DNA of 50,870 bases from the IMG/VR virus record IMGVR_UViG_3300031825_000017, positions 1 to 50,870 of that record; one strand, written 5' to 3'. The stretch's first letter is position 1, and each line of letters begins with the position of its first letter. Shown one piece after another: positions 2,133-48,899 of the stretch. Both the position numbers and the translations under genes were made by a program. The DNA is from a virus. Below the pieces are notes generated by a model that worked only from the letters and a program-made list of their open reading frames with translations, did no database searches and had not been told where the DNA came from.

Positions 2133-2663
2133 TTACGCATGGGGTTGGTAGGGAGCGGGCCGTACCGCGCCAGCGACGTACAGCGGGTGCTTGGGGCTGC
2201 CGTCCTTGTTCAGGCCCAAGTGGTGCAGCAGCGGCCCGCGGCCACACATCCGGACGATGCGCAGCACCTCCGCCGCGCGCGCCGGCGCCGCCTTGTGCGC
2301 GCCCCATGCGCAGATCACCAGCGAGCAGCGGTCCAGTGCATCCATGATGGCGCCGTCGTTCCGGTCAGCCCGGTCGCCCAGCGGTGCCGGATGGGTCAGC
2401 AGGCCGTCCGGATCGGTCGAGCGCAGCGGGTAGAGGTTGACCACCTCCAGCCGGCCGTACTTGCCGGCCAGCGCGCGCTGCAGGCACCGCATGATCGTTG
2501 GGTCGTTGACCTGGTGATCTGCGGTTGACGGGTTGAGCATGATGAAGCCCAAGGCCGGCCGGCTGCGGTCCCACTCGCGCCACAGGCGGTAGCGGTACTG
2601 TTCGCAGTCGGAGAGGATGCAGCCGGCCTCGCCGTCGAGGGTAGTTTCCGTCAGATGTTTCAT
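2133..2663 (-). CDS. DUF1643 domain protein
   Basis: This is a 176-residue protein with the DUF1643 signature: RYRLWREW, then LGFIMLNPSTADHQVNDPT, then RLEVVNLYPLRSTDP and VICAWGAHK. The family is widespread in phages and bacteria and its activity is not known. The reading frame is open further upstream, but the ATG at 2663 overlaps the stop of the helicase gene (ATGA), and family homology begins just after it. The extra upstream frame is antisense-like sequence. Confidence 0.8.
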   Translation of the reverse strand: MKHLTETTLDGEAGCILSDCEQYRYRLWREWDRSRPALGFIMLNPSTADHQVNDPTIMRCLQRALAGKYGRLEVVNLYPLRSTDPDGLLTHPAPLGDRADRNDGAIMDALDRCSLVICAWGAHKAAPARAAEVLRIVRMCGRGPLLHHLGLNKDGSPKHPLYVAGAVRPAPYQPHA

Positions 2664-2872
2664 GGCATGCACCGCGGGTTGCCACAGCACATGCCGCGCA
2701 CCACGTCGCCATCCGTCAGGGTGTCGAGGTCGTCGGCGGTATACCAGCGTGAATCGCCGGCGCGCAGCGCGGCGATCTTCACCGTCTCGCGCGCGCCGCA
2801 ATGGCATTCCAACCAAACCTCAGATTCGTCGGCGAGCGCCTGATCCGCCATCCACTGGTCGAAGGACTTCAT
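2660..2872 (-). CDS. Small Cys-rich phage protein, in frame at the end of the helicase ORF
   Basis: An ATG at 2872, preceded by GGAGGTGGCGGC, could start a separate 70-residue protein in the same frame as the helicase/methylase. It begins MKSFDQWMADQ and ends in CCGNPRCMP, with CHC and CC clusters suggesting a zinc site. It reads like an independent phage gene whose own ribosome binding site is now translated as a run of glycines inside the larger ORF. Whether it is made alone, as the fusion tail, or both cannot be told from sequence. Confidence 0.4.
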   Translation of the reverse strand: MKSFDQWMADQALADESEVWLECHCGARETVKIAALRAGDSRWYTADDLDTLTDGDVVRGMCCGNPRCMP

Positions 2873-4516
2873 GCCGCCACCTCCGGGAATCCGGCCCGGC
2901 TTCAGCATGCGCAGCAGCTCGGGCGTCAGGAAATCCATCTGCTGCCAGAAGTGCGAGTTGTCCTCGGTGTGGCCGAAGTCGTTGTACGAGGGCGAATACT
3001 CGTAGTGGTTGGCGAACGGGATCGAGGTCACGATCAGGTCGACCGATGCGTCCGACTGCCGGCGCGCCTCGTCCACGCAGTCGTTGTTCGCCACGCGGAA
3101 GAACCGGCCCTCGACCTCGATGCGCTTGACGCCGATCGAGCGCGCGAGGGTCTCCTGCATGGCGAGTTGGTTGAGGCCATACTGCTTGATGATGTCGGTC
3201 ATCTTCTGCACCATTTCGTCGTGACGGCGCCACTTTTCCTGCAGCGTGCGAAGGATCTCGCGCTCGGCCTCCGAGTGGATGATGTCCACACGGCAGGCGT
3301 GGGGCTGCTGGAACCGCTGGATGCGGTGGATCGCCTGGATGAAGTCGTTGAACTTGAACCCGATGCCGGAGAAGATCTCGCGATGGCAGTGCCGCTGGAA
3401 GTTGCAGCCGCTGCCGGCGATGATCGGCTTCGTGGAGAGCAGCCGGTACCGGCCCTCGCCGAAGTCGATGATGCGCTGCTCGCGCTCATCCAGATCCTGG
3501 CTGCCCCACACGCTGACTGCCTCGGGCAGCGCCTCTTGGATGGCATGCCGCTCCATCTCCAGGTCGTGCCAGATCACGAAATGGTCGTCGGGTGCCTCGG
3601 CCACCAGCTCAGCCGCTTTGGCCACGCGCGCGTCCAGACTGTTGCGCTTCTCCGCCGAGGCCGCTTGCACGCCTAGCGCCGGGTCGTTGAACATCAGGCC
3701 CTGGCCGATCTTGTCGGTGCCGGCCGTGCTGTAGTCGGTGGGTACCTCGTGGTATCGCACGTCGAGCGGCGGCAATTCATAGCCCTCGTCGCTGTAGCCG
3801 AGATCGGATGGCTTCTGGATGAACACCGCCCAGCTGCTCACCCACATCCAGAATTCCTGTTCCTTGTGCGGATAGAGCGTCAGGTTGCCGGCCTTCTCGC
3901 TGTCCCGCTGGAAGAAGCGGGTTAGCGCCTGACCAGTGTCCATCTGCCCAAGGAAGCCGGCGTAGTGGATCAGTTCCTTGAAGCGATTCGGGCTCGGCGT
4001 CGCCGTGTTGACCAGTTTGAACGGCACGCCTTCGAACAGCGGCAGAAACTCCTGATAGGTCTTGCTGCCGAACGAGCGCAGCACGGACGCCTCGTCCAGG
4101 CTGACGGCCGTAAACCGACGCGGGTCGATCTTCCCCTCGCGCACCGATTCGTAGTTGGTCAGGTAGTAGCGCTGGCCGGCGGCGACCTCGGCATCCGTCC
4201 GGATGAAGCGCAGGTCGATGCCGAGCATGCGGGCATCGCGGATCAGTTCTTGGCGCACACCCAGTGGAGCGACGAGCAGCAGCATGCCGCCGGCGCGTTC
4301 GACGGTCAGGCGCCCCCATTCGCACTGCATCACCGACTTACCCAGGCCGAATGAGGCGAAGATGCCGCGGTTTCCGCCCTTGACGGCCCAGCGCACGATA
4401 TCGCGCTGGTGGCCGAACAGGATCGGATTCACGTCACCCGGCGCGACGTCGAACCCGTCGAAGCGAGCCATCTTGATCTTGGCGCGCAGGAATTCGTCGT
4501 ATCGGTCCGCCGTCAT
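2660..4516 (-). CDS. SNF2-like helicase fused to a truncated N4/N6 DNA methylase
   Basis: This is a 618-residue protein. The N-terminal half is a superfamily 2 helicase with Walker A-like SFGLGKS, a degenerate Walker B region (SLDEASVLRSF) and TATPSPNR; the C-terminal helicase lobe includes AIHRIQRFQQ. A beta-class methylase segment follows with the catalytic motif TSIPF in place of DPPY, then the family hallmark EYSPSYNDFGHTEDN. After LRMLKPGR the sequence jumps into a different 70-residue protein. From memory, full-length relatives continue about 250 residues further and include a DPFGG-type AdoMet-binding motif, which is missing here. It is therefore probably active as a helicase at best. 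The start overlaps the methyltransferase stop (ATGA) behind a GGAGG site. Confidence 0.8.
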   Translation of the reverse strand: MTADRYDEFLRAKIKMARFDGFDVAPGDVNPILFGHQRDIVRWAVKGGNRGIFASFGLGKSVMQCEWGRLTVERAGGMLLLVAPLGVRQELIRDARMLGIDLRFIRTDAEVAAGQRYYLTNYESVREGKIDPRRFTAVSLDEASVLRSFGSKTYQEFLPLFEGVPFKLVNTATPSPNRFKELIHYAGFLGQMDTGQALTRFFQRDSEKAGNLTLYPHKEQEFWMWVSSWAVFIQKPSDLGYSDEGYELPPLDVRYHEVPTDYSTAGTDKIGQGLMFNDPALGVQAASAEKRNSLDARVAKAAELVAEAPDDHFVIWHDLEMERHAIQEALPEAVSVWGSQDLDEREQRIIDFGEGRYRLLSTKPIIAGSGCNFQRHCHREIFSGIGFKFNDFIQAIHRIQRFQQPHACRVDIIHSEAEREILRTLQEKWRRHDEMVQKMTDIIKQYGLNQLAMQETLARSIGVKRIEVEGRFFRVANNDCVDEARRQSDASVDLIVTSIPFANHYEYSPSYNDFGHTEDNSHFWQQMDFLTPELLRMLKPGRIPGGGGMKSFDQWMADQALADESEVWLECHCGARETVKIAALRAGDSRWYTADDLDTLTDGDVVRGMCCGNPRCMP

Positions 4517-6297
4517 ACTGCCTCCGTGATGCCGGCCACCGACAGCGCCACCGCCACCTGCCGCACCCACACCGGCGTGGCGGACAGCATGAAGGTCTCG
4601 CCCGCCTCGGCCAGCAGTAGGGTGGTGCCCATCACCTCGGCGATGGCCTGCGCCGCGTCGGGCGGCACGGCATTGCCGATACGCTCGCGCCAAGCCTGGT
4701 CGCTCAGGCCGTCCAGCTCGAGGTATTCCTCGGGCTCGATCAGCGACTGCAGGGCGGCCAGCTCCAGCGTGGTGAACGGGCGGTGCCAGGTGCCATCGAG
4801 CGCGCGGATGATCGCCACCAGCTTGTCGTTCGCCGCCGGCATGCGTGGATCGGCCACCGACCACCGGCCGTTGTCGTGCCCGGCCGCCGCCGATACCGCG
4901 CCGCTGGGCTGTTCCCACGCCACCACGCCATAGTGCCCGCCGGTCAGGTAGTTATCGCCCGGTTCGCGGCGCATACCCGGGCGCGGATCGGCCACGGCGT
5001 ATGCACCCTGGCCGGTCGTGCTACCGCTGATGACCGTGCCGGCCGGCGCGTCGAAGGGCGTAACCGCATACTTGCCGAACGTGGGTCCGGCGCGCCGCGG
5101 GTCCTGCACGCACTGGCCGGTGCCGTGGGCGCTGGTGACGGCGCCGGCGGCCTCTGCCCACGGCACGATCCGGAACTCGTTGTTGTGCTTGGCCGGCCCG
5201 GCGTGGCGAGGGTCGGCGACGCTGAAGGTGCCCTGGCCGGGATTGGTTCCGGCCGTGATGGCGCCCGAACTCTCGCCCCAGCATAGCACGCCGTATTGCT
5301 GGTACTGCGCCGCGCCGGCCGGGCCGCGCGGGTCCGCGATCGAGAACGTGCCATTGCTGGGCAGCGATTCGCCCGCAACCGCACCGGCATGCTCTTCCCA
5401 GCCCAAGACGCCCAGGGCGCCGTTGCGGCGCTCCGGCATGATCAGGTAGTCGCGCAGCTTGCCGTTCTCCACCGCCAGCTTGTTCAGGCTGCGCCAGTCG
5501 CTGCCGGCCTCAACGAACGCCAGCCTCACCCATGTCTTCCACTGCAGCGACGGCACGCGGTGCATTGGGCCGCCAGCGGAGTCGCCAGGCAGCGGCATGC
5601 GGCCCAGCACCGTGCCGACACCCTGCAGGCGGTGAATCTCCGGTTCGTACAGGAATGCCGGCACCTTGGCCGTGTGCCGCGCCACCAGCAGGAAGCGCTT
5701 GCGGCTTTGCGCCAACTTGCCGATCTCCCCGCAGTCGTGGGTCGTCTCGTTCACCGCATAGCCGTAATAGCGCAGGATCTTTGCGATCTGGTCCAGCAGG
5801 TGGCGTCCGCGCGTGGCGAGCCGCGGCACGTTTTCGAACACGATCAACTCGACCGGGTCATCCTTCCAAGCCTCGCACATCAGCCACACGCAGCGCAGCG
5901 TCAGCTCGTTGAGCGCCTGGTACTTCGGCGTGCGGCTCAACGCCTCGGACAGCAGGCCGGAGGCGCCCTTGCACGGCGATGAGATGAACACACAGTTCGG
6001 CCGCTCGTTGCCGGCGGCGCGCCGGATGTCGGCGGCCGTGGCCTCGCGCCAGCCCGCCGGCGGCTCCTTGCCATGGAACGCGGTGTACTGTTCGCGCGTG
6101 AACAGGTCCATCACCGTGCACGGCACGCCCACCAGTTGCTGGAAGTCGCGCGCGGCGGCCGGGTCCACGTCAATGCCGCCGATGCACTTCCAGGTGGCAA
6201 TCATGTTGCCGACTTGCGAGGCGGCCTTCTTGAAGCCCTTGGCGCCACCGCCGAGACCGCAGCAGAAACCGAACGTCTTGTATTCTCGGCGGATCAT
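4513..6297 (-). CDS. DNA cytosine-5 methyltransferase with a repeated insert
   Basis: This 594-residue enzyme transfers a methyl group to C5 of cytosine in a specific DNA site, probably shielding phage DNA from host restriction. Motif I is FGFCCGLGGGAKGF (residues 9-22), the catalytic Cys is in SPC (109), motif VI is ENV (155-157), motif VIII is QSRKRFLLVA, and motif X is RIGNAVPP. Between VIII and the end, about residues 300-485, lie five related units of about 35-45 residues. Each has a W or F, then GAV or GTV, then a DPR motif. They fall where the target-recognition region is expected. It overlaps both neighbours by 4 bp. Confidence 0.9.
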   Translation of the reverse strand: MIRREYKTFGFCCGLGGGAKGFKKAASQVGNMIATWKCIGGIDVDPAAARDFQQLVGVPCTVMDLFTREQYTAFHGKEPPAGWREATAADIRRAAGNERPNCVFISSPCKGASGLLSEALSRTPKYQALNELTLRCVWLMCEAWKDDPVELIVFENVPRLATRGRHLLDQIAKILRYYGYAVNETTHDCGEIGKLAQSRKRFLLVARHTAKVPAFLYEPEIHRLQGVGTVLGRMPLPGDSAGGPMHRVPSLQWKTWVRLAFVEAGSDWRSLNKLAVENGKLRDYLIMPERRNGALGVLGWEEHAGAVAGESLPSNGTFSIADPRGPAGAAQYQQYGVLCWGESSGAITAGTNPGQGTFSVADPRHAGPAKHNNEFRIVPWAEAAGAVTSAHGTGQCVQDPRRAGPTFGKYAVTPFDAPAGTVISGSTTGQGAYAVADPRPGMRREPGDNYLTGGHYGVVAWEQPSGAVSAAAGHDNGRWSVADPRMPAANDKLVAIIRALDGTWHRPFTTLELAALQSLIEPEEYLELDGLSDQAWRERIGNAVPPDAAQAIAEVMGTTLLLAEAGETFMLSATPVWVRQVAVALSVAGITEAV

Positions 6298-8971: not shown

Positions 8972-9279
8972 TGGTGATCCTTGATCTTTTCCAGGAATGC
9001 GGCCATCGGCCCGTATTTCACCCAGCGCGCCAGCGGCTGCGAAGGTCGGTTCTTCGCACCGTCGTGCAGCGCGTCGAGCAAGCGCTCGAATTGCTGCAGG
9101 CGGGCGGCCTGGGCAATTCCGGCCTCGCGCGCCACGTCGAGCAGGGACAGCGTCTCCGCCAACTGCCGGCGCAGCTCGGCGTTCTTTCGCTTCAGGTCGT
9201 CGGAGTCGCGCGCGAGGTCGGCGATGTCGTGGTTCATCCGATCAGCCTGGCGGATCGGCGTGCGGAGGGGCCAGTTCAT
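8968..9279 (-). CDS. Hypothetical coiled-coil protein immediately downstream of the RT gene
   Basis: This is a 103-residue protein with a heptad-rich stretch (about residues 16-60, DLARDSDDLKRKNAELRRQL), which should form a coiled coil. Its start codon overlaps the stop of the reverse transcriptase (ATGA), so it is translated with the retroelement genes. That position makes a role in the DGR possible, but nothing else supports it; homologous coiled-coil proteins are common in phage early operons. Confidence 0.55.
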   Translation of the reverse strand: MNWPLRTPIRQADRMNHDIADLARDSDDLKRKNAELRRQLAETLSLLDVAREAGIAQAARLQQFERLLDALHDGAKNRPSQPLARWVKYGPMAAFLEKIKDHQ

Positions 9280-10643
9280 GAGGGCTCCTTTCTGGCGGCG
9301 GTGGAATTGCGGTATGCCTTGGTCAGGCCGAAATCGACGGCATGCCCGCGGTAGCGGATGATCTTCGCCAGGTGCGCGCGGTCGGCGTGGCTGCCAGTCG
9401 CCTGCCGCAGCAGGCCGAGATAGCTGTTCGCCGCGGCATGCACCTCATGCGCTTCCATCTGCGCGAGACGCTGCGCGGCGACGTTGACGGTGCGGCGGCG
9501 AGTAGTGCGCACCCACGGACGGATGACTTGACCGACGAAGTCGATGCCGCGGCTCACCGGCTGCAGGATGGTCTTCGTCGGGTTCAGCCGGGCGCCGAGT
9601 CGGCGCGGCAGGAACGCCTCGATGTCATCGTGCGCGGCGTTGAGCCACTGTGGCGATTCGTGCAGCAGCAGGAAGTCGTCGACGTAGCGGATGTAGTGCC
9701 GCGCGCCGAGGACATGCTTTGCGCGCTGGTCGAGCACGTTCAGGTACACGTTGGCGAAGAACTGCGACGACAGATTTCCGATGGGCAGGCCGAGATGTGC
9801 GGGCTGTTCCATGAGGCGCTTGTGGGGCGGCACCCGGTCCATCAGCTTGGGATCACCCAGGTAGACGAAGTCGGCTCGTGGATCGTGCATCAGCACGAGC
9901 TCGGTCAGCGCGCGCCAGAACGGCTCGGGGATCTTCGCGAGCAGCAGATCGAGAAGAACGCGCTTGTCGATGCTGACGAAGAAGTTGGCCAGGTCGCATT
10001 TGAGGTAATACGCCGGCCGCGACCAGTTCTGCGTGATCGAGCGCACCTTGGCTTCGAGGCGTCGCGCTGCGTAGAGCGTTCCGTGCCCCTTGATGCATGC
10101 GCACGAGTCCGCGATGAACGAGCGCTCGAAGCGTGGGCCGATGCGGTTGTACAGCAGGTGGTGCACGATACGGTCGCGGAACTCGGCCGCCCACACCTCG
10201 CGGTGCTTTGGCCGATCGATGACGAAGCACTTCGAGCGGCCGGGCACATAGCTGCCATCCTCCAATTCGTCGTGCAGGCGGCACAGGTTGCGCTCGAGAT
10301 CGGCCTCGAACGCAAGCGCGCTTGCTGTGTTGCGTTTGGTGCGCCGGCAGTCGTGGTAGGCCACGACGAGCTCGGCGCCAGTGAATCCTTCTACTTCGTT
10401 CCAATCTGCTGACGACGACCGCGCGAAGCGCGGCGCTCTTGTGGTTGTTGTTCTGGTTGCCGTTGTTGAAGTTCTGGTACCAGGCGTAAGCGGAACCATC
10501 GCGCTATCTACGTCGCCCACCCGATCACTCAGGCGGGAAACTGCGCCGGACCCTGTCGCACACTGGCGGTCGGTTTCCGTTTTGCGCATGGCGGTGGCCT
10601 TGTGGGCCAGCGGCGCGACCAGATTGAAACGGCGCTCAGTCAT
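9276..10643 (-). CDS. DGR reverse transcriptase
   Basis: This 455-residue protein copies the template RNA into cDNA with errors at adenines. The polymerase palm is clear: first catalytic Asp in LKCDLANFF (217), PIGNLSSQ (287-294, the SQ variant typical of DGR enzymes where other group II-like RTs have SP), and the active site YVDD (320-323). The thumb follows (DFVGQVIRPWVRTTRRR). The start at 10643 has a GGAGG 11 nt upstream, and its ATG overlaps the Avd stop. Read from there, residues 51-81 are encoded by the template repeat in another frame, giving a Thr/Arg-rich stretch. Conserved RT sequence begins only around residue 85, so a later non-ATG start cannot be excluded. Confidence 0.93.
   Translation of the reverse strand: MTERRFNLVAPLAHKATAMRKTETDRQCATGSGAVSRLSDRVGDVDSAMVPLTPGTRTSTTATRTTTTRAPRFARSSSADWNEVEGFTGAELVVAYHDCRRTKRNTASALAFEADLERNLCRLHDELEDGSYVPGRSKCFVIDRPKHREVWAAEFRDRIVHHLLYNRIGPRFERSFIADSCACIKGHGTLYAARRLEAKVRSITQNWSRPAYYLKCDLANFFVSIDKRVLLDLLLAKIPEPFWRALTELVLMHDPRADFVYLGDPKLMDRVPPHKRLMEQPAHLGLPIGNLSSQFFANVYLNVLDQRAKHVLGARHYIRYVDDFLLLHESPQWLNAAHDDIEAFLPRRLGARLNPTKTILQPVSRGIDFVGQVIRPWVRTTRRRTVNVAAQRLAQMEAHEVHAAANSYLGLLRQATGSHADRAHLAKIIRYRGHAVDFGLTKAYRNSTAARKEPS
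10403..10493 (-). repeat. DGR template repeat (TR)
   Basis: A 91 bp sequence matching both variable repeats. In the reading direction of the target genes it would encode AYAWYQNFNNGNQNNNHK followed by SAALRAVVVSR. The AAC codons are concentrated where the targets vary. The first 35 bp on the + strand (10403-10437) are identical in all three copies and form the constant end, equivalent to the initiation-of-mutagenic-homing region. A 6 bp perfect hairpin (CCGCGC, loop GAA, GCGCGG) sits at 10419-10433. The TR lies between avd and the RT core, inside the RT open frame. Confidence 0.95.
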
Positions 10644-11013
10644 GACGGCCTTGACCTCCATGAAGCGGGCGCTTAGCAGCATATTTTTTCCAGGCCGTGG
10701 CTTGCTTGCTGATGCTCACGGTCAACCGGATGACACACCAATACTGCTTTGGCGAAATTCTCTCCATATCCAGCGCGAGGCGTAGCAGCAACTCAACCAG
10801 CTTTATCTTCTCTATCAGATGAGCAAGGTGTGGCACCTTGTCATCGGCGACGTTTGCGCGATAGACAAGAATCAGCAACTTGGAAGATTCCCGCACGATC
10901 TCCTCACCGATCAGGCGCTTGAACGAGCGTTCCATGTTGGCGACGATCTTCGTTACCCTACCGAAAAGGTCGTAGCCAGTCTTATAGACGTCGAGCTCGG
11001 TATGGAGAGCCAT
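10636..11013 (-). CDS. avd: Avd-like DGR accessory protein
   Basis: This is a 125-residue basic, all-helical protein (YKTGYDLFGRVTKIVANMER, then RANVADDKVPHLAHLIEKI, then LLLRLALDMERIS). The pattern of an N-terminal helix, R-hydrophobic repeats and a late conserved helix is that of the four-helix-bundle Avd family. In the Bordetella phage DGR, Avd forms a pentamer that binds the RT and template RNA and is essential for mutagenic homing. The position between a variable repeat and the template repeat is the classic order. Its stop overlaps the RT start. Confidence 0.88.
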   Translation of the reverse strand: MALHTELDVYKTGYDLFGRVTKIVANMERSFKRLIGEEIVRESSKLLILVYRANVADDKVPHLAHLIEKIKLVELLLRLALDMERISPKQYWCVIRLTVSISKQATAWKKYAAKRPLHGGQGRHD

Positions 11014-11027
11014 GGCGTGTCAAATGA

Positions 11028-11495
11028 TTAAATTATTGAAGGAATGAATCTGCTGACGACGACCGCGCGAAGCGCGGCGCTCTTGCGGTAGTAGTCCTGG
11101 GTGCCGTAGCAGAAGTACTGGAACCAGGCGTAAGCGGGATCGCCTTCGTAGTCTTCTTCGAGCCAGATGCTTCCCTTGGTGCATTCCTCGGGGAAGGCCG
11201 CCTGCAGAAGGCGCCCCTCGCGACAGTTCGGCAGCTTGAGCCCACGGCCTGCCGCATATGCTTTTGCATCGTCGTGCGGCGCTATCTCGCCCTCGCCGGC
11301 GTGCAGGATCAGGTAGTAGTCGATGGTGCCATCTTCCTTGAAGATCGGACCCGCAACGCGGGCGCCGGGAGGCAGCGGAATTACCGCGCGCTCGATGACA
11401 TATTCGGTGGTGCCTGATTGCTTTTCGTACTGCTCGATCAGCGCGCCGACGCGCGCGTGCTCGGACTTGATGTGTTCCAGCGTGACACTCGACAT
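11028..11495 (-). CDS. DGR target protein 1 (C-type-lectin-like end, carries VR1)
   Basis: This is a 155-residue protein without a signal peptide or membrane segment. The N-terminal ~40 residues are helical (EHIKSEHARVGALIEQYEK). The rest resembles a DUF1566/Lcl C-type-lectin fold, with KLPNCREG and SIWLEED before the variable end. Residues 121-150 (AYAWFQYFCYGTQDYYRK then SAALRAVVVSRF) are the VR. Nine residues differ from the template: Y125F, N127Y, N129C, N130Y, N132T, N134D, N135Y, N136Y and H137R. A GGAGGT site lies 5 nt before the ATG. It is probably a diversified ligand-binding protein; its ligand and location are unknown. Confidence 0.9.
   Translation of the reverse strand: MSSVTLEHIKSEHARVGALIEQYEKQSGTTEYVIERAVIPLPPGARVAGPIFKEDGTIDYYLILHAGEGEIAPHDDAKAYAAGRGLKLPNCREGRLLQAAFPEECTKGSIWLEEDYEGDPAYAWFQYFCYGTQDYYRKSAALRAVVVSRFIPSII
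11047..11137 (-). repeat. DGR variable repeat 1 (VR1)
   Basis: 91 bp aligned without gaps to the TR at 10403-10493. Ten positions differ: 11086, 11090, 11093, 11096, 11101, 11108, 11110, 11111, 11117 and 11122. Every one of them is an adenine on the coding strand of the TR. The 35 bp constant end (11047-11081) is identical to the TR and includes the hairpin at 11063-11077. The stop codon follows a few codons after the repeat. Confidence 0.96.
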
Positions 11496-11532
11496 GGAAG
11501 ACCTCCGGTGGTGGATCGAATGGGTGAATGAA

Positions 11533-11892
11533 TCAATTTTTGAATCTGCTGACGACGACCGCGCGAAGCGCGGCGCTATTGTGGTCGTTGCTCTGGCCGC
11601 CGTCGTAGAAGTCCTGGGACCAGGCGTAAGCGGAGTCCCACTCGACGTCGTCGTCGGTCCAGTACGCCTCTGGCTTCACGAGCTCTCGGTGCTCGTTGTA
11701 GATGATCAGCGCATCGACTCGGGTGAAGAGGACGCCGCCGACGCTCTTCGCCCATTCACGCTGCTGGTCACGCGGCCGCCGTGTGTCGGTCACTGCGATG
11801 ATCACGGTGTGCTCGATGTCGCCGTTCTTGTCGATGCGGCCGTGCAGATAGGTTTGGCCTTCGGCGAGCGGTGGGATTTGGATTTGCTGCAT
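11533..11892 (-). CDS. DGR target protein 2 (C-type-lectin-like end, carries VR2)
   Basis: This is a 119-residue protein. It has no signal peptide and shows DUF1566-like landmarks (REWAKSVGG, AYWTDDDVEW) before the variable end AYAWSQDFYDGGQSNDHN and the constant SAALRAVVVSRF. Its N-terminal part is unlike target 1, so it is not a simple recent duplication. Of three possible starts, the ATG at 11892 is preferred because GGGAGA lies just upstream; a GTG at 11919 is the longest alternative. It stands upstream of target 1 and shares the same template repeat. Confidence 0.88.
   Translation of the reverse strand: MQQIQIPPLAEGQTYLHGRIDKNGDIEHTVIIAVTDTRRPRDQQREWAKSVGGVLFTRVDALIIYNEHRELVKPEAYWTDDDVEWDSAYAWSQDFYDGGQSNDHNSAALRAVVVSRFKN
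11543..11633 (-). repeat. DGR variable repeat 2 (VR2)
   Basis: 91 bp aligned without gaps to the TR. Nine positions differ: 11578, 11586, 11591, 11597, 11598, 11604, 11607, 11613 and 11618. Eight are at template adenines of the coding strand. The exception, 11578, changes a coding-strand G to T (Lys to Asn) directly next to the constant end. The 35 bp constant end (11543-11577) and its hairpin (11559-11573) are identical to the TR. Confidence 0.96.
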
Positions 11893-13321: not shown

Positions 13322-13906
13322 TCAGGCGGCGTGTTTGCTGCGGTAGCGGTGAAGGGTCAGGCACGACAGGAAGACGGCCCAGTCGTCCGGGTCCTTCATC
13401 TCGTGCAGGCGGTAGGTACCGTCGTCGCGCAACTGCAGCGTGTAGCGGCCAGGCACGCGCTTGCCGGTTTCCTGCTCGACGGCGTTCTTGTACGCGGCGG
13501 TCTGCGGGCCATAGCTCGGGTACAGCTCGCCGGTCTTGAGGTCGAGGATCCCGCGCGCGCCGTCCATATGGATCAGCCGGTCATAGGTGCCGGCGTACCG
13601 ATGGGCGGGATGGAACACACGTTGCTCCATGCCAAGGATCTCGAATTCCTTCTCGGCTCGGAACCGAATCCACGCGTCGAGGTAGGGACGCACGACGTCC
13701 GAGACCGTCGATTCGTCGAGATCGCCCTCGTCGTATAGTTCGGTCGCCTTGTGCACCGCGGTGCCGAGCTGGCGCTTGTATTCCAGCACCTCGGGGGCGA
13801 CGAACTTGAAGTCGACCAGGGGCGCGAGGATCTGCGTCACGCTCGGCACAGCGACGCCTTCGAACGTGTAGGTGTGCGACGGCTCGTCGAAGACCAGACC
13901 AGACAT
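13322..13906 (-). CDS. PD-(D/E)XK family phage exonuclease
   Basis: This is a 194-residue nuclease. It shows GTAVHKATELYDEG (a RecB/Cas4-like helix), a catalytic acidic residue in YAGTYDRL, and ILDLKTG with the D-x-K of the PD-(D/E)XK core, then YGPQTAAYKNAVE. Paired with the Bet-type annealing protein immediately upstream, it should resect double-strand ends to give single strands for annealing, as lambda Exo and Beta do. The start overlaps the bet stop as TGATG; the longer open frame upstream is a shadow of bet. Confidence 0.87.
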   Translation of the reverse strand: MSGLVFDEPSHTYTFEGVAVPSVTQILAPLVDFKFVAPEVLEYKRQLGTAVHKATELYDEGDLDESTVSDVVRPYLDAWIRFRAEKEFEILGMEQRVFHPAHRYAGTYDRLIHMDGARGILDLKTGELYPSYGPQTAAYKNAVEQETGKRVPGRYTLQLRDDGTYRLHEMKDPDDWAVFLSCLTLHRYRSKHAA

Positions 13907-14877
13907 CAGCAGTTCTCCCGGATGTAGTCCTGCAGCGCCACGAAGCCATCGCGCGTCAGGCCGTCGAGCGTGTCGGACAGCGACAGGCCGGTGGCGGCCA
14001 GCGCGTCCGCCACGGCGATGTCTGCGCTGCCGAGTTTTTTGCGTACGTACTGCTTCTCTCCGTCCGTGGCCAGGTCGGTGGCCTCGGCGTCTTCGAATTC
14101 GCGAGACTGCGTCGCGCGCTGGGCGGGCGGCTGCTTGGTGGCTTCGCGCTCGACGTGCTCGACCGGCGCGGCGCTCGTGAGTGGCTGTTCGATGGTGGTC
14201 GCCTGCTGCTGCTCGACCTGCTTCGGCTTTGCCTTGGGCTGCTGCACGGCCACTGCGGAGCCGGCAGCGGAGCGCGCTACGTCGGCGGCGCCCATATCGC
14301 GCTCGACGATGCGCTGTGCCTCGTCCTCGTCGTAGATGCCGGCGAAGCCGTAGGCCAGGCGTGCGCCCTGGATGAGCGTCTTGTGGCGCATCATCCGCGA
14401 CGGGTGGGACTTCCACGGCTGCATGCTCGGCCGAACCACCTCCGCGAAGCGCTCGCGGATCTTGATCGGCCGCGCGCGGTCCTTCCGGTAGATATGCACT
14501 TCCATCCAGACCGGCACCGTCTTGCCCTCGAAGGTGGTCGTTTCCTCGGACTCCACGAACTCGAAACCGTCAGACTGAGGGTGTTCGTTGATGATCCGCG
14601 ACCAACCGTCGACGCCCACCACCGGCACGATGCCGCCCTTGTCGGGGAAGGCGTAGATTTCCTTCGTGAATGGGTTCAGACCGTACTGGTCAGCCACGAT
14701 CAGCAGCGCGGCCATCTGCTCGTTGCTGATGTCTTGGTTGCCGTTCTGGCGGAACGCCGTGGCCTTCAGCGTGTTGAGAAGCTTGTCGGCCTCGATGCTG
14801 TACTTCGCCGCAAACTTCGCAACGAGGGTCTGTTTCTGGGGCGCGGCGGCCGGGCGCTCGGCAACTGCAGTAGACAT
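13906..14877 (-). CDS. bet: Single-strand annealing protein, Bet/RecT family
   Basis: This 323-residue protein anneals complementary single strands during phage recombination. Diagnostic sequence includes DKLLNTLKATAFRQNGNQDI, MAALLIVADQYGLNPFTKEI, YAFPDKGGIVPVVGVDGWSR and RMMRHKTLIQGARLAYGFAG, all typical of the phage Bet subgroup. The C-terminal third is a Gln/Ala/Lys-rich linker followed by a small domain. It pairs with the exonuclease downstream. Confidence 0.95.
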   Translation of the reverse strand: MSTAVAERPAAAPQKQTLVAKFAAKYSIEADKLLNTLKATAFRQNGNQDISNEQMAALLIVADQYGLNPFTKEIYAFPDKGGIVPVVGVDGWSRIINEHPQSDGFEFVESEETTTFEGKTVPVWMEVHIYRKDRARPIKIRERFAEVVRPSMQPWKSHPSRMMRHKTLIQGARLAYGFAGIYDEDEAQRIVERDMGAADVARSAAGSAVAVQQPKAKPKQVEQQQATTIEQPLTSAAPVEHVEREATKQPPAQRATQSREFEDAEATDLATDGEKQYVRKKLGSADIAVADALAATGLSLSDTLDGLTRDGFVALQDYIRENC

Positions 14878-17463: not shown

Positions 17464-17517
17464 ATTCTACAAATACGTTTGTAGACGCGCAAGGGAAATC
17501 TACAAAAAAATACGTAG
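17464..17517 (-). promoter_or_regulatory. Leftward early promoter PL with two repressor operators
   Basis: On the minus strand a -35 TTGCGC (17492-17487) and a -10 TAGAAT (17469-17464) are separated by exactly 17 bp. The operator CTACAAATACGTTTGTAG (17467-17484) lies in the spacer and overlaps the -10. A weaker copy, CTACAAAAAAATACGTAG, lies at 17500-17517. The first is the same as an operator in front of cro. Repressor bound here would block the whole early operon, including the DGR and the integrase. Confidence 0.8.
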
Positions 17518-17567
17518 ACCAAGAATGTCTGGTACTAGGCATTCAATGAGTGGGGGTGGCGCGGACG

Positions 17568-17597
17568 AAAAAAAGCCCGCCGGTAGAGGGCGGGCTT
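17568..17597 (-). terminator. Rho-independent terminator of the cI transcript
   Basis: Read leftward, stem AAGCCCGCC and GGCGGGCTT around a 7 nt loop, followed by a run of T (A at 17568-17574 on the + strand). It closes the cI / zinc-ribbon / lipoprotein transcript just before the PL region. Confidence 0.85.
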
Positions 17598-18296: not shown

Positions 18297-19049
18297 TTAC
18301 AGGCGCGTTTTGATCTTGCGCGCCGGCACAGGGTGCGCAACGTAGTACATCCAGGTGATCTGGTCTATGTCGTAGGTCAGAATCTCCGGATCGTTGTAGC
18401 TGCCCAGGCGGACGCCCTGACGACGAGAGAGAAGGCGCTTGATGATCGTCTCGCCGGATTCCAGGCGCACAAGCACGTCGTCTTCGATCTCCGGCTCTGT
18501 TCCTGGCTCGACCAGGGCGAACTCGCCAGGGTTGAAGCGGGGCACCATCGACGTCCCCACCACCGGCGTGAGAAACGCCTGCGGGTCGGGGCTCGCCATC
18601 TCTGCGTACTGGTCTGTTGCTCCCACTGGATAGTCCCCGTCCGTCCAAATGCGATCGGGCAGTCCCCCGGTCGCGCGGCCGACGACGTAGATCCGTCTGA
18701 ACTTGGAAGTGTCGGCCGGATAGGTCAGCGGGGTGGCTGGTGGTGCCCTTGAAAGGTCATTGTAAGCCGGTGCCGATGGCTCTTTGACACCCTTCTCTAG
18801 TAGGGCATGGGGCATCTTCGGCTTATGGGCACCGCCATAAGCCAGCCAGTTCACATCGCACTTGAGTACCTCCGCGAGGCGCACCGTGTACTTGCTGGAG
18901 CGCGCGTTTTTGTTCGGGTCCAGCAGGTGCTGGATGTTCTGTGGCTTGCATCCATGGCCCACCTGGCGGGCCAATTCGCTCTGGTCTGTATGGGGGTCGA
19001 GCCCGGCGCATTTCATTGCCCAGGCGAGCCGCTCGGCGTACGTGTTCAT
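18297..19049 (-). CDS. cI: CI-type phage repressor (HTH plus LexA/S24 domain)
   Basis: This 250-residue protein maintains lysogeny. The N-terminal region contains a helix-turn-helix (QSELARQVGHGCKPQNIQHLL, about residues 23-43). The C-terminal half is a LexA/S24 peptidase-like dimerisation domain with the nucleophile Ser167 in VVGTSMVPRFNPG and Lys204 in ETIIKRLL. The self-cleavage region is near VVGRATGG, without the usual Ala-Gly pair. The ATG at 19049 touches the first operator, so the maintenance transcript could be leaderless, as for lambda cI; the longer open frame upstream runs through the operators and cro. It faces cro across a three-operator region. Confidence 0.9.
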   Translation of the reverse strand: MNTYAERLAWAMKCAGLDPHTDQSELARQVGHGCKPQNIQHLLDPNKNARSSKYTVRLAEVLKCDVNWLAYGGAHKPKMPHALLEKGVKEPSAPAYNDLSRAPPATPLTYPADTSKFRRIYVVGRATGGLPDRIWTDGDYPVGATDQYAEMASPDPQAFLTPVVGTSMVPRFNPGEFALVEPGTEPEIEDDVLVRLESGETIIKRLLSRRQGVRLGSYNDPEILTYDIDQITWMYYVAHPVPARKIKTRL

Positions 19050-19113
19050 AACAAAGCATTTTGTAGCCTTGCCTTGCAAAAAGGTTTGTAGGGTGCTACA
19101 AATACGTTTGTAA
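19049..19113. promoter_or_regulatory. Divergent cI/cro control region with three operators and PR
   Basis: Three related 18 bp sites lie at 19049-19066 (TAACAAAGCATTTTGTAG), 19074-19091 (TTGCAAAAAGGTTTGTAG) and 19096-19113 (CTACAAATACGTTTGTAA), spaced 25 and 22 bp start to start. On the + strand a promoter fits between them: -35 TTGCAA (19074-19079), 17 bp, then -10 TACAAA (19097-19102). Both boxes lie inside operators, so repressor should block it. The arrangement is lambda OR-like. Confidence 0.8.
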
Positions 19114-19116
19114 TGA

Positions 19117-19383
19117 ATGACCTTATGCGCCATGACCGAAGCCCTCAATGAAGTCGCCGGCCCGCTCGACATCGCCATCTCCATCGTCGGCTCGCAAACC
19201 AAGCTGGCCGCGCTGCTCGGCGTCTCCCAGCAGAACGTTTCCAACTGGGTGAAGAACGGCATCCCGGATGACAAGAAGCCGGTGATCGCGGGGAAGCTCG
19301 AGCGAATCACGGACGGGCGCGTCACTCGTCGGATGGTCTGCCCGAACAACTGGGCAGAAATCTGGCCGGAACTGGCGGCCTAG
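19117..19383 (+). CDS. Cro/YdaS-like regulator
   Basis: This is an 88-residue helix-turn-helix protein (GSQTKLAALLGVSQQNVSNW) with the C-terminal pattern GKLERITDGRVTRRMVCPNN and WAEIWPEL, typical of YdaS/Cro proteins in lambdoid-type immunity regions. It is divergent from cI and should repress the maintenance promoter during lytic growth. Starts are possible at 19117 or 19132; neither has a good ribosome binding site, and the predicted PR transcript would begin only a few bases upstream. Confidence 0.85.
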   Translation: MTLCAMTEALNEVAGPLDIAISIVGSQTKLAALLGVSQQNVSNWVKNGIPDDKKPVIAGKLERITDGRVTRRMVCPNNWAEIWPELAA

Positions 19384-26833: not shown

Positions 26834-27299
26834 AGCAGGCAACTGGTGCCGGACCCGTAACCGGCTTCCTCACGCATGGCGGTTGCAACAGGTGGCCCGC
26901 AGCGTTGGCGAAAGCAGACAGCGATGCCCGACCGCAGCCGCCAGTCGTGAGGGGAAATAAAAGCCGATGCGGGCCAGCGAATACGCGGCCTAAGCATGCC
27001 GAGATTGGCGCCGGCCCCTCACCCTGTAGCCCAGCGGCGCCATCAGCGTGCCAAATCCAGAATTTTGTGTCCCATCGGACACACAGCATTGCGGCATGGC
27101 GCAGAGGTAGCGCAGCGGGTTCATACCCCGATGGTCCCTGGTTCGAATCCAGGTGCCGCAACCAGTCTCGATGACAGTCGAGGCCACCCCCGGCCGGCGG
27201 TGGGGACAATAACACCGGCAGCTGCTGACGTGACGTAAGCCAGTCTCCTCCCCGTTTGGGATCGCGGGTCCTTTCAGGCGACGGGCAGCAGCCCCTTTC
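26834..27299 (+). other. Non-coding region upstream of the terminase genes
   Basis: About 470 bp with no credible protein gene. It holds a tRNA (27090-27164) and, just before it, an inverted repeat TGTGTCC / GGACACA with a 4 nt loop (27066-27083). The stretch 27165-27299 before the terminase gene shows no clear gene; it is where a pac/cos site or late leader would be expected, but I see no diagnostic sequence. Confidence 0.6.
27090..27164 (+). tRNA. Phage tRNA with CAT anticodon (Met, or Ile reading ATA)
   Basis: A full cloverleaf is visible. The acceptor is TGCGGCA / TGCCGCA, all seven pairs matched. The D stem is GCGC / GCGC and the anticodon loop TTCATAC (27120-27126). The anticodon stem is GCGGG / CCCGA, with its outermost pair G-A mismatched. 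The T arm is CCTGG-TTCGAAT-CCAGG, then A and encoded CCA. CAT can be elongator tRNA-Met, or tRNA-Ile after lysidine modification; sequence alone does not decide. The matched 1-72 pair argues against an initiator. Confidence 0.85.
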
Positions 27300-37038: not shown

Positions 37039-37058
37039 CATATCGACGAGGGATGACC

Positions 37059-39451: not shown

Positions 39452-39636
39452 AATCGCTGCCCGGCGGCGAGGACTGGCTGATGGCGCCCGTGTTGGAGGG
39501 GATGTGCAAGTTCGAGTCATTGAAGGACGGCACCATCGGGTTGGAAGACATTGCCTTGATGCACGACGCACTGGCCGTCAGGGCCGACAACCAGGCCGAA
39601 GCACGCCGCAGGATGGAAGAAAAGCATGGCCAATAG
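38993..39636 (+). CDS. Tail assembly chaperone, long frameshift product (gpGT-like)
   Basis: After the heptamer at 39385-39391, ribosomes slipping by -1 continue as PFYQRAAYRPSEQPGTGSTS and then WLKSLPGGEDWLMAPVLEGM, CKFESLKDGTIGLEDIALMH, ending MEEKHGQ. That second-frame stretch is clearly protein-like, conserved in style with related phages, and has no start of its own. Annotated as a join of 38993-39390 and 39390-39636. It overlaps the tape measure start. Confidence 0.8.
39385..39427 (+). promoter_or_regulatory. -1 ribosomal frameshift element
   Basis: The slippery heptamer C CCT TTT (39385-39391) is in the right frame for X XXY YYZ slippage. After a 5 nt spacer comes a 9 bp stem, CGGGCTGCT (39397-39405) with AGCAGCCCG (39419-39427), around a 13 nt loop. 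The -1 frame is open into the downstream chaperone domain. Confidence 0.85.
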
Positions 39637-48014: not shown

Positions 48015-48899
48015 ATGCCTGCAAACGATTTCCTGGTGTTCGGCGGCGGCGCCGGCGCCAACGTGATGAGCCAGGCCGATTGGGCGGCGCTCGCCCAGCG
48101 GCTCAGCGGCTTCCAATCCGGCGTGGCGCAGTCTGCGCAACTCAACAAGGCATGGCGGCAATCGAGCATCATGGCTGCGGTGCTGGCGCAGTTCATTTCG
48201 GACCAGACTGGTCAGGATGTGCTGGACGATGGGACCATCGCCACGATCCTAGCGAACATGAAGAAGGCAATGCCCGGCCGCTACTTGGGAACTCGCGTGT
48301 TCACCGCCAGCGGTACCTACACTCCCACGGCCGGCACGACCAGCGTCATTGTCGAAGTAATCGGCGGCGGCGGCGGCGGCGGAAATACATCTACAACAAG
48401 TGCTTCTCAGGTGTGCATCGCAGGTGGCGGAGGTGCAGGGGGGTATGCCAGAAGCTACCTGACATCTGGATTCAGTGGCGCGAGCATCACGATCGGCACT
48501 GCTGGCGCAGCAAATGGAAACGGTGGCACGACTTCCTTTGGCGCGTTGCTTTCTGCGACGGGCGGTGCGGGGGCAGGTAACGGCCCAGCTGTGATCCCGG
48601 CGGCCACGGCAATCGGCGGCATCGGTGGTAACGGCTCGTCTGGGAACATCATCAATTCGAAGGGGGGGGACGGATCCTGTGGCGTAGCTGGCGCGACGAC
48701 CAGCTTCATCAGTGGAGCGGGCGGCACCTCAGAGTTGGGCGCTGGCGGGGCTGGTCAGCCCACTAGCACAGCAGCAGGGATTGCTGCGGTGACACGCGGT
48801 TCCGGCGGCGGCGGATCCTTGTGTGGAACCAGCACCGGGACTGTTATCTTGGGCGGTGCGGGGGCGGCCGGGATCTGCTTGGTTCACGAGTTCGCTTGA
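48015..48899 (+). CDS. Tail fibre with glycine-rich C-terminal domain
   Basis: This is a 294-residue protein. The N-terminal part (NDFLVFGGGAGANVMSQADW, LAQFISDQTGQDVLDDGTIA) is a common fibre base for this tail class. From residue ~115 the sequence has repeated polyglycine stretches (GGGGGGGN, AGGGGAGGYA, GAGGTSELGAGGAG), a build seen in phage adhesins with stacked glycine helices. The tip would define host range and has no DGR repeat. Confidence 0.75.
   Translation: MPANDFLVFGGGAGANVMSQADWAALAQRLSGFQSGVAQSAQLNKAWRQSSIMAAVLAQFISDQTGQDVLDDGTIATILANMKKAMPGRYLGTRVFTASGTYTPTAGTTSVIVEVIGGGGGGGNTSTTSASQVCIAGGGGAGGYARSYLTSGFSGASITIGTAGAANGNGGTTSFGALLSATGGAGAGNGPAVIPAATAIGGIGGNGSSGNIINSKGGDGSCGVAGATTSFISGAGGTSELGAGGAGQPTSTAAGIAAVTRGSGGGGSLCGTSTGTVILGGAGAAGICLVHEFA

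Follow-up and report, generated by a model that had tools for sequence, protein, structure and literature searches.

The DGRs of phages have mostly been explained by tail-tip tropism switching, and the mechanism by which they copy is well established. In phage BPP-1 (mtd-avd-TR-brt), the diversified protein Mtd has a lectin fold and is a single 381-aa target encoded directly beside the tail genes, on the same strand. The announcement of Burkholderia phage Magia described a potential DGR, named the short products 47 and 57 as its targets, and proposed adaptation or host range as its role (PMC7883833). In one survey, tail proteins make up most of the viral targets in three DGR clades (PMC8144416, Roux 2021), and DUF1566 targets and multi-VR elements have been described as well (PMC6642488). 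Small phage DGR targets as such are not new. Among the titles and abstract openings of the literature searched, we recognized no account of early-operon DGR targets as a class, and we did not find the operator control, leader RNA and tail decoupling of the lineage presented below described as a class.

The stretch of DNA analyzed here (the window: 50,870 nucleotides, IMG/VR record IMGVR_UViG_3300031825_000017) is a temperate phage with a contractile tail. An integrase (119-1186) occupies its left end, the left part carries a leftward operon that includes RecT, and cI and a cro-like gene are found near 19 kb. The replication, packaging, head and tail genes form a rightward block reaching to about 50 kb, with the sheath starting at 37053 and the fibre at 48015. 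At the far end of the leftward operon (2660-6297, minus strand) lie genes for a DNA methyltransferase and a helicase-like protein, which weakly match the PADLOC models DruM/DrmMII, DrmD and BrxH. The features discussed are listed in Table 1.

Table 1. Features of the window, with positions counted from its first letter
Feature	Position	Strand	Basis
DGR reverse transcriptase (RT) ORF	9276..10682	-	PHROG 1423 at 1.6e-111; Pfam RVT_1 (PF00078) at 1e-14
Template repeat (TR), core 91 nt	10403..10493	-	TR/VR comparison
RT-15 RNA (Rfam RF03018), directly 5' of TR	10492..10674	-	167.3 bits, E 1.1e-41, full model
avd, DGR accessory protein	10636..11013	-	PHROG 3206 at 1.3e-21
Target 1, 155 aa; predicted N-terminal helix and C-type lectin fold	11028..11495	-	ORF, VR1, AlphaFold model
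VR1, in target 1	11047-11137	-	Alignment to TR
Target 2, 119 aa (ATG 11892); predicted bare C-type lectin fold	11533..11892	-	ORF, VR2, AlphaFold model
VR2, in target 2	11543-11633	-	Alignment to TR
RecT/Bet-like annealing protein, in leftward operon with DGR	13906..14877	-	Profile matches
Two operator-like palindromes before leftward operon	17466..17518		Motif search
Terminator-like hairpin parting cI unit from leftward early operon	17573..17597	-	Hairpin search
cI-like repressor ORF, start probably near 19049	18297..19349	-	PHROG 4 at 1.6e-26
17-mer operator between cI and cro-like gene	19096..19112		Motif search
cro-like repressor ORF	19117..19383	+	PHROG 35 at 1.4e-17
Tail fibre, VR-less (contrast)	48015..48899	+	Tail PHROGs, best 1.3e-46

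The leftward operon contains a complete DGR in the order target 2, target 1, avd, RT-15 RNA, TR and RT. Its RT adjoins the TR and is related to Brt, and the VRs lie at the 3' ends of both target genes, in a C-type lectin fold. Over 91 aligned bases, VR1 differs from the TR at 10 positions, all of them template adenines, and VR2 at 9, of which 8 are template adenines (18/19 for both VRs together). When the whole window was scanned on both strands with the 66 non-A positions of the TR, the TR scored 1.00, VR1 1.00 and VR2 0.98, while every other place scored at most 0.58 and no third VR-like place was found. The tail fibre thus carries no VR, as the preliminary description had claimed. The same scan, together with the adenine bias, ruled out a chance repeat as the source of the TR/VR pairs. 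Likewise, a hidden VR in the tail fibre was rejected, as there was none in the window and none outside the early region in 22 IMG/VR records, Magia and Shewanella phage QDWS. The window Avd matched Pfam bAvd at 2.2e-8 with 35 bits, below the Pfam cut-off of 40.

The RT ORF crosses both the RT-15 RNA and the TR (10403-10682, minus strand). Only 49 of 60 relatives have no stop in this frame across the TR. Because of this, and because the Rfam RNA occupies the stretch, the true RT start probably lies downstream of the TR and the long N terminus is probably not coding; on the same grounds we rejected translation of the RT from a start upstream of the TR. The stops found in the other relatives (11/60) suggest that the annotated RT starts of such phages, including that of Magia gp44, may be too far upstream.

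The order target-avd-TR-RT, the adenine-specific TR/VR pair and the lectin-fold target are all reminiscent of BPP-1, whose brt is 32% identical to the window RT over the matched part. However, the window harbors two small targets in its early operon instead of one large target beside the tail genes, and RT-15 lies upstream of the TR whereas in BPP-1 RF03022 lies downstream of it. Furthermore, in BPP-1, BalMu-1, Lagaffe, VHML, ACA1, YPCBV-1, ZX4290 and 1F273 the cassette is on the strand of baseplate, tail or virion genes and only a few genes away from them. The cassette of Bacteroides F2 is near a gene labelled outer capsid protein, and around those of Bise and phiWae15 the genes examined are mostly annotated as hypothetical. 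In the window, the targets (minus strand) are neither in the tail module nor on its strand (plus), in agreement with the preliminary description. The distance of more than 15 kb given there holds for the linear, prophage-like order, in which 25-36 kb separate the targets from the tail genes; if the genome is circularised, the fibre end is about 13 kb away.

We then considered the control of the operon. The 17-mer CTACAAATACGTTTGTA is present at 17467-17483, beside a second palindrome of like kind, and at 19096-19112 (2 sites found in the window with up to 3 mismatches, 0.02 expected). Since identical operators are found at cI/cro and before the leftward operon, the proposed control of the targets' operon by the phage repressor is supported at the level of sequence. 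No promoter-like site was found at the leftward operator of the window. In Magia, the design is alike and the operator sequence different: GGTTRT-N10-AYAACC occurs only at 39600 and 40388 (0.11 expected), the latter site being located between cI and cro. The former overlaps a 12-of-12 sigma-70 promoter match pointing leftward into the operon, and the first annotated leftward gene behind this promoter is gp57, a VR-bearing target. A terminator-like hairpin closely precedes target 2 in Magia but is lacking at this place in the window, and no promoter-like site was found there in either phage. An independent transcription unit ("moron") was therefore rejected despite the Magia hairpin.

Both targets are small, and target 2 would reach 128 aa if begun at an upstream GTG. 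Their best 19-residue Kyte-Doolittle means are 1.01 and 0.88, so that a hydropathy test, as opposed to a signal-peptide predictor, detected no membrane- or signal-like stretch in either; in agreement with this, none of 137 targets (window and relatives) had a 19-residue mean above 1.6. The small size noted at the outset is borne out, and the hydropathy agrees with a lack of signal peptides. The DUF1566/lectin-like ends are borne out in part. The window targets reached E 0.019 and 0.031 (15.7 and 15 bits) against Pfam Lcl_C (PF07603), which we take to be the former DUF1566, and so stay below the curated cut-off of 34.9 bits. Nevertheless, 33 of 39 target-1 family members match Lcl_C at E<=0.01 (an E-value criterion, not the bit cut-off), and 3 of 36 target-2 family members weakly resemble adhesin Lcl in NCBIfam.

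AlphaFold models, built from alignments of 37 and 33 sequences, predict for target 1 a helix followed by a lectin fold (mean pLDDT 86), and for target 2 the lectin fold alone (mean pLDDT 95). No segment precedes the lectin domain in the model of target 2, and no domain able to anchor the protein is present. Among the matches listed, the solved folds closest to target 2 are the C-terminal domains of Legionella Lcl (8q4e; Z 13.0, rmsd 3.6, 112 aligned, 17% identity) and Bdellovibrio Bd2740 (8oks; Z 13.2, rmsd 2.4, 101 aligned, 11% identity). Both are parts of larger bacterial proteins, with no DGR implied, and this likeness shows no function. The solved DGR variable proteins Mtd, TvpA, AvpA and TaqVP were absent from the 50 structure matches listed, which leaves room for kinship. 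Searching the solved structures by sequence gave weak matches (best E 0.022 and 0.16). The targets matched no known defence or counter-defence family, with 0 PADLOC defence families at E<=0.01; the window RT matched many PADLOC RT models, a general RT likeness.

Magia (gp44-gp47, gp57) belongs to the same lineage, with an RT 72% and targets 44% identical to those of the window and the same gene order, operon and tail genes; it differs by an additional target, gp57, which opens the operon and makes three in all. Magia gp46 (L002, 32316-32780) also bears a VR, with 55/55 non-A positions matching and 11 A changed. This VR is as good as those of gp47 and gp57; the announcement does not list gp46, which is called hypothetical, among the targets. 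The Pseudomonas phages Haboob, phPA-G, Cruim01, LPPA56 and SC_8_H2H8_2017, identified through their RTs, have RTs 62-66% identical to that of the window, the RT-15 RNA and two small VR-bearing ORFs before avd, with VRs matching the TR at all non-A positions. Compared to the window, their targets are longer (163-221 aa, annotated ORFs) and their operon neighbours are different; in Haboob and phPA-G the cassette is beside CI.

A scan with target 1 of the window alone found no relatives, and a scan with target-1 relatives found 79 viral loci. Together with the window, Magia and QDWS, these loci make 82 records. A TR and supported VRs were obtained from 64 of them: two VRs in 36, three in 22, four in 1 and one in 5. 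The spacing is stereotyped: in most records the gap to avd downstream is 15-30 bases from the end of target 1 and about 500 from that of target 2. The early counts of 71 are upper bounds owing to spurious short "RT" and "target" matches (L009, L036, L045, L074 and L076, for example); later counts exclude TR/VR pairs with less than 95% non-A identity or fewer than 4 changed A. Because these loci (L004-L082) had been found by target 1, small targets were to be expected, and we therefore added sets drawn by RT and by leader RNA.

VRs were found at 72 of the 80 RT-drawn loci, two or three of them at 59 of these 72, and no large tail-type target was found in this set. In this set, 32/80 contigs are shared with the target-drawn set, 5/80 loci are too near a contig end and three have no TR/VR pair; target lengths are those of the longest start, so that some (to 511) run into upstream sequence. 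For the leader-RNA-drawn set, 299 genomes were sampled from species of one bacterial family, that of the genome of locus L144 (G051, titled Burkholderia aenigmatica); 19 of them contained loci scoring above the cut-off, 20 in all. Two or three VRs lie within 1.5 kb at 18 of these loci, one at 1 and none at 1. Taken together, Magia, QDWS, the five Pseudomonas phages and the drawn samples have mostly two small lectin-fold targets, sometimes three or four. The claim that the diversified proteins sit in the early operon and not in the tail module thus extends beyond the window, and early-operon placement is supported as a conserved trait of the lineage, of which IMG/VR holds at least 555 relatives by RT.

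Lineage cassettes were also found in prophages of named bacterial genomes, with a long RT match at 39 of 46 loci. Plasmid carriage was rejected (one record, 5% of the query). At L036, L045, L153 and L156, targets 1 and 2 occur without avd and with only a short RT-like match, and a search of the genome of L156 gave no RT-15 RNA; the target genes may persist after loss of the DGR.

The RT-15 match of the window (167.3 bits) is above the Rfam gathering score of 82 bits. This RNA was present in all 18 lineage members tested and in none of 11 named DGR phages outside the RT clade; of the latter, RF03022 was found in BPP-1 and RT-14 in BalMu-1, and nine gave no RNA match. This link suggests that the RNA family acts as a leader for the DGR template RNA, and it offers a way to search for further members independently of the targets. 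In the RT tree, the early-operon elements make up one side of a branch with support 87/95, recovered in 84% of bootstrap trees, in a tree where the long-branch row of Bacteroides F2 stands beside the early clade and Bise and phiWae15 are labelled "tail" though nearly all neighbours examined are named hypothetical.

We next analyzed how the cassette relates to virion genes in 50 of the 79 records, 22 of which were scanned whole for VRs. The cassette occurs with baseplate-J in 29/50 and with gpJ tails in 9/50 (8 over the cut-off), and it is on the strand opposite the baseplate-J/gpJ marker in all 17 IMG/VR records with a mapped marker. The tail genes of the window, Magia and QDWS are likewise on the opposite strand. 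In the 22 whole records VRs were found only on the cassette strand, in scans by 20-kb pieces that miss a VR crossing a piece end, as probably happened to the target-1 VR of G007.

Were the targets docked to the tail, one would expect their constant part to vary along with its genes, and the mismatch observed argues against a fixed tail part. Outside the VR, target 1 is 93% identical between Magia and QDWS and 80% identical between Magia (baseplate) and G002 (gpJ tail), with 0 shared late ORFs in both pairs; a shared ORF has 40% identity over 60% of its length, and "late" denotes opposite-strand ORFs of at least 200 aa, some of which are not real genes. Conversely, Magia and the window have 20 structural genes in common, mostly 50-80% identical and including nearly the whole tail, whereas their targets 1 and 2 are only 44% identical between the two phages. 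As expected of close relatives, G016 and Magia share 16-17 late ORFs and a target 1 that is 98% identical. Decoupled pairs have only one to three early ORFs in common, RT included, indicating that the cassette itself is the travelling unit. As it shares little with the other early genes of its carriers, decoupling alone names no compartment. We consider decoupling the main new sequence-derived argument against the targets being a fixed part of the tail, with which an adhesin with a permissive anchor would still be compatible. The window fibre (48015-48899) matches the Magia fibre over its first 86 residues only, the usual mark of fibre-tip exchange, and the fibre itself thus looks like the tropism-bearing part.

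Variation among relatives is an indirect sign of mutagenic retrohoming. Across 29 close, mutually non-independent pairs, 648/4622 VR sites and 5709/79072 other sites differ, and 638 of the 648 VR differences fall at TR adenines. The contrast is sharpest between L017 and L029, with differences at 24/160 VR sites, all template A, and at 31/2781 other sites; two still closer pairs (of three very close ones) have 2/160 and 0/160 VR differences. The 3.2-kb cassettes of L042 and L043 are identical save for 2 sites, both in a VR and one at a template adenine.

We give an even chance to the reading that the targets, in a distinct phage lineage, are soluble binders produced early and are not tail tips. 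Its basis in the sequence consists of the shared operators, one TR serving two (elsewhere up to four) paralogues and the adenine-specific variation, and both early placement and decoupling argue against a dedicated tail tip. Derepression or infection would switch on the leftward operon, so that targets, avd and RT would be made together, beside recombination functions. The RT-15/TR transcript would be copied with errors at adenines and home into the 3' ends of the target genes. The targets would fold in the cytosol and bind, through their mutable lectin face, a macromolecule of the host or a competitor, most plausibly a defence or takeover factor; the N-terminal helix of target 1 may oligomerise it or make an effector contact. 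As the DGR would alter this face between generations, some phages of a population would carry a fitting binder, and the new binders of descendants would act in the cytosol of the next cell. That a whole lineage diversifies early non-tail proteins suggests that they act on something besides the entry receptor, the ligands probably being host or competitor factors. A widespread lineage of this kind needs an explanation other than tail-tip tropism switching. The intracellular recognition proposed in the preliminary description is thus favored by operator control, decoupling and the lack of a signal-like stretch, with timing, ligand and compartment left to inference. Several points count against early binders: to our knowledge, every well-studied phage DGR target acts in adsorption, the nearest solved folds are extracellular adhesin domains, the targets match no known defence or counter-defence family, and two of the three very close pairs show few or no VR differences. 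A bolder version sees here a phage counterpart of an antibody repertoire, in which a dedicated DGR lineage, with an RT clade and an RT-15 leader RNA of its own and two to four targets distributed over one repressor-controlled operon, would vary proteins that bind immune or takeover factors of the host in the cytosol. This version is tentative and somewhat unlikely; if true, phage populations would pre-adapt to defences inside the cell and not to receptors outside.

The targets could instead be virion adhesins encoded in an unusual place, made early, accumulating and joining tail or head at assembly, with the DGR shifting tropism. Indeed, early promoters do not forbid late assembly, a C-type lectin fold combined with a DGR is what Mtd displays, host range was proposed by the Magia authors (PMC7883833) and tail proteins are most of the viral targets in three DGR clades (PMC8144416). 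We nevertheless regard this as unlikely, given the early operon on the opposite strand throughout and a constant part that is decoupled from late genes and common to baseplate and gpJ-tailed phages; moreover, target 2 has no predicted anchor domain, and the fibre, alike in Magia and the window over only its first 86 residues, looks tropism-bearing. Prophage carriage in named bacterial genomes (39/46 loci with a long RT match) would suit a factor made in lysogens that binds incoming phages or their parts in superinfection exclusion or immunity. DGR-based immunity has already been proposed (PMC10053308), and the Magia hairpin upstream of target 2 would allow a separate unit. Yet neither the window nor Magia shows a promoter-like site ahead of target 2, and the operators place the operon under the repressor, making such lysogen protection improbable. 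Finally, lectins released at lysis could work outside the cell, as decoys for or agglutinins of debris, neighbours or competing virions. This would require no export signal and accord with the likeness to extracellular adhesins. Nothing positive points to such a release, however, and a late promoter would fit it better than an early one; we consider it improbable too.

The reading of the targets as early-made binders is open to direct test in the cultured members Magia, QDWS, Haboob, phPA-G, LPPA56 and Cruim01. "Hujiaoplasma phage zrk29-1" (OP650936.1) and QDWS are both 47902 long and 99.8% identical over the 9 kb compared; as zrk29-1 is recorded with a Tenericutes bacterium as host, the host label of one or the other record is doubtful. 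In the window, a tRNA-Met gene (27090-27164, plus strand) lies just before the packaging genes, and Haboob, of the same DGR lineage, likewise carries a tRNA-Met before its terminase.
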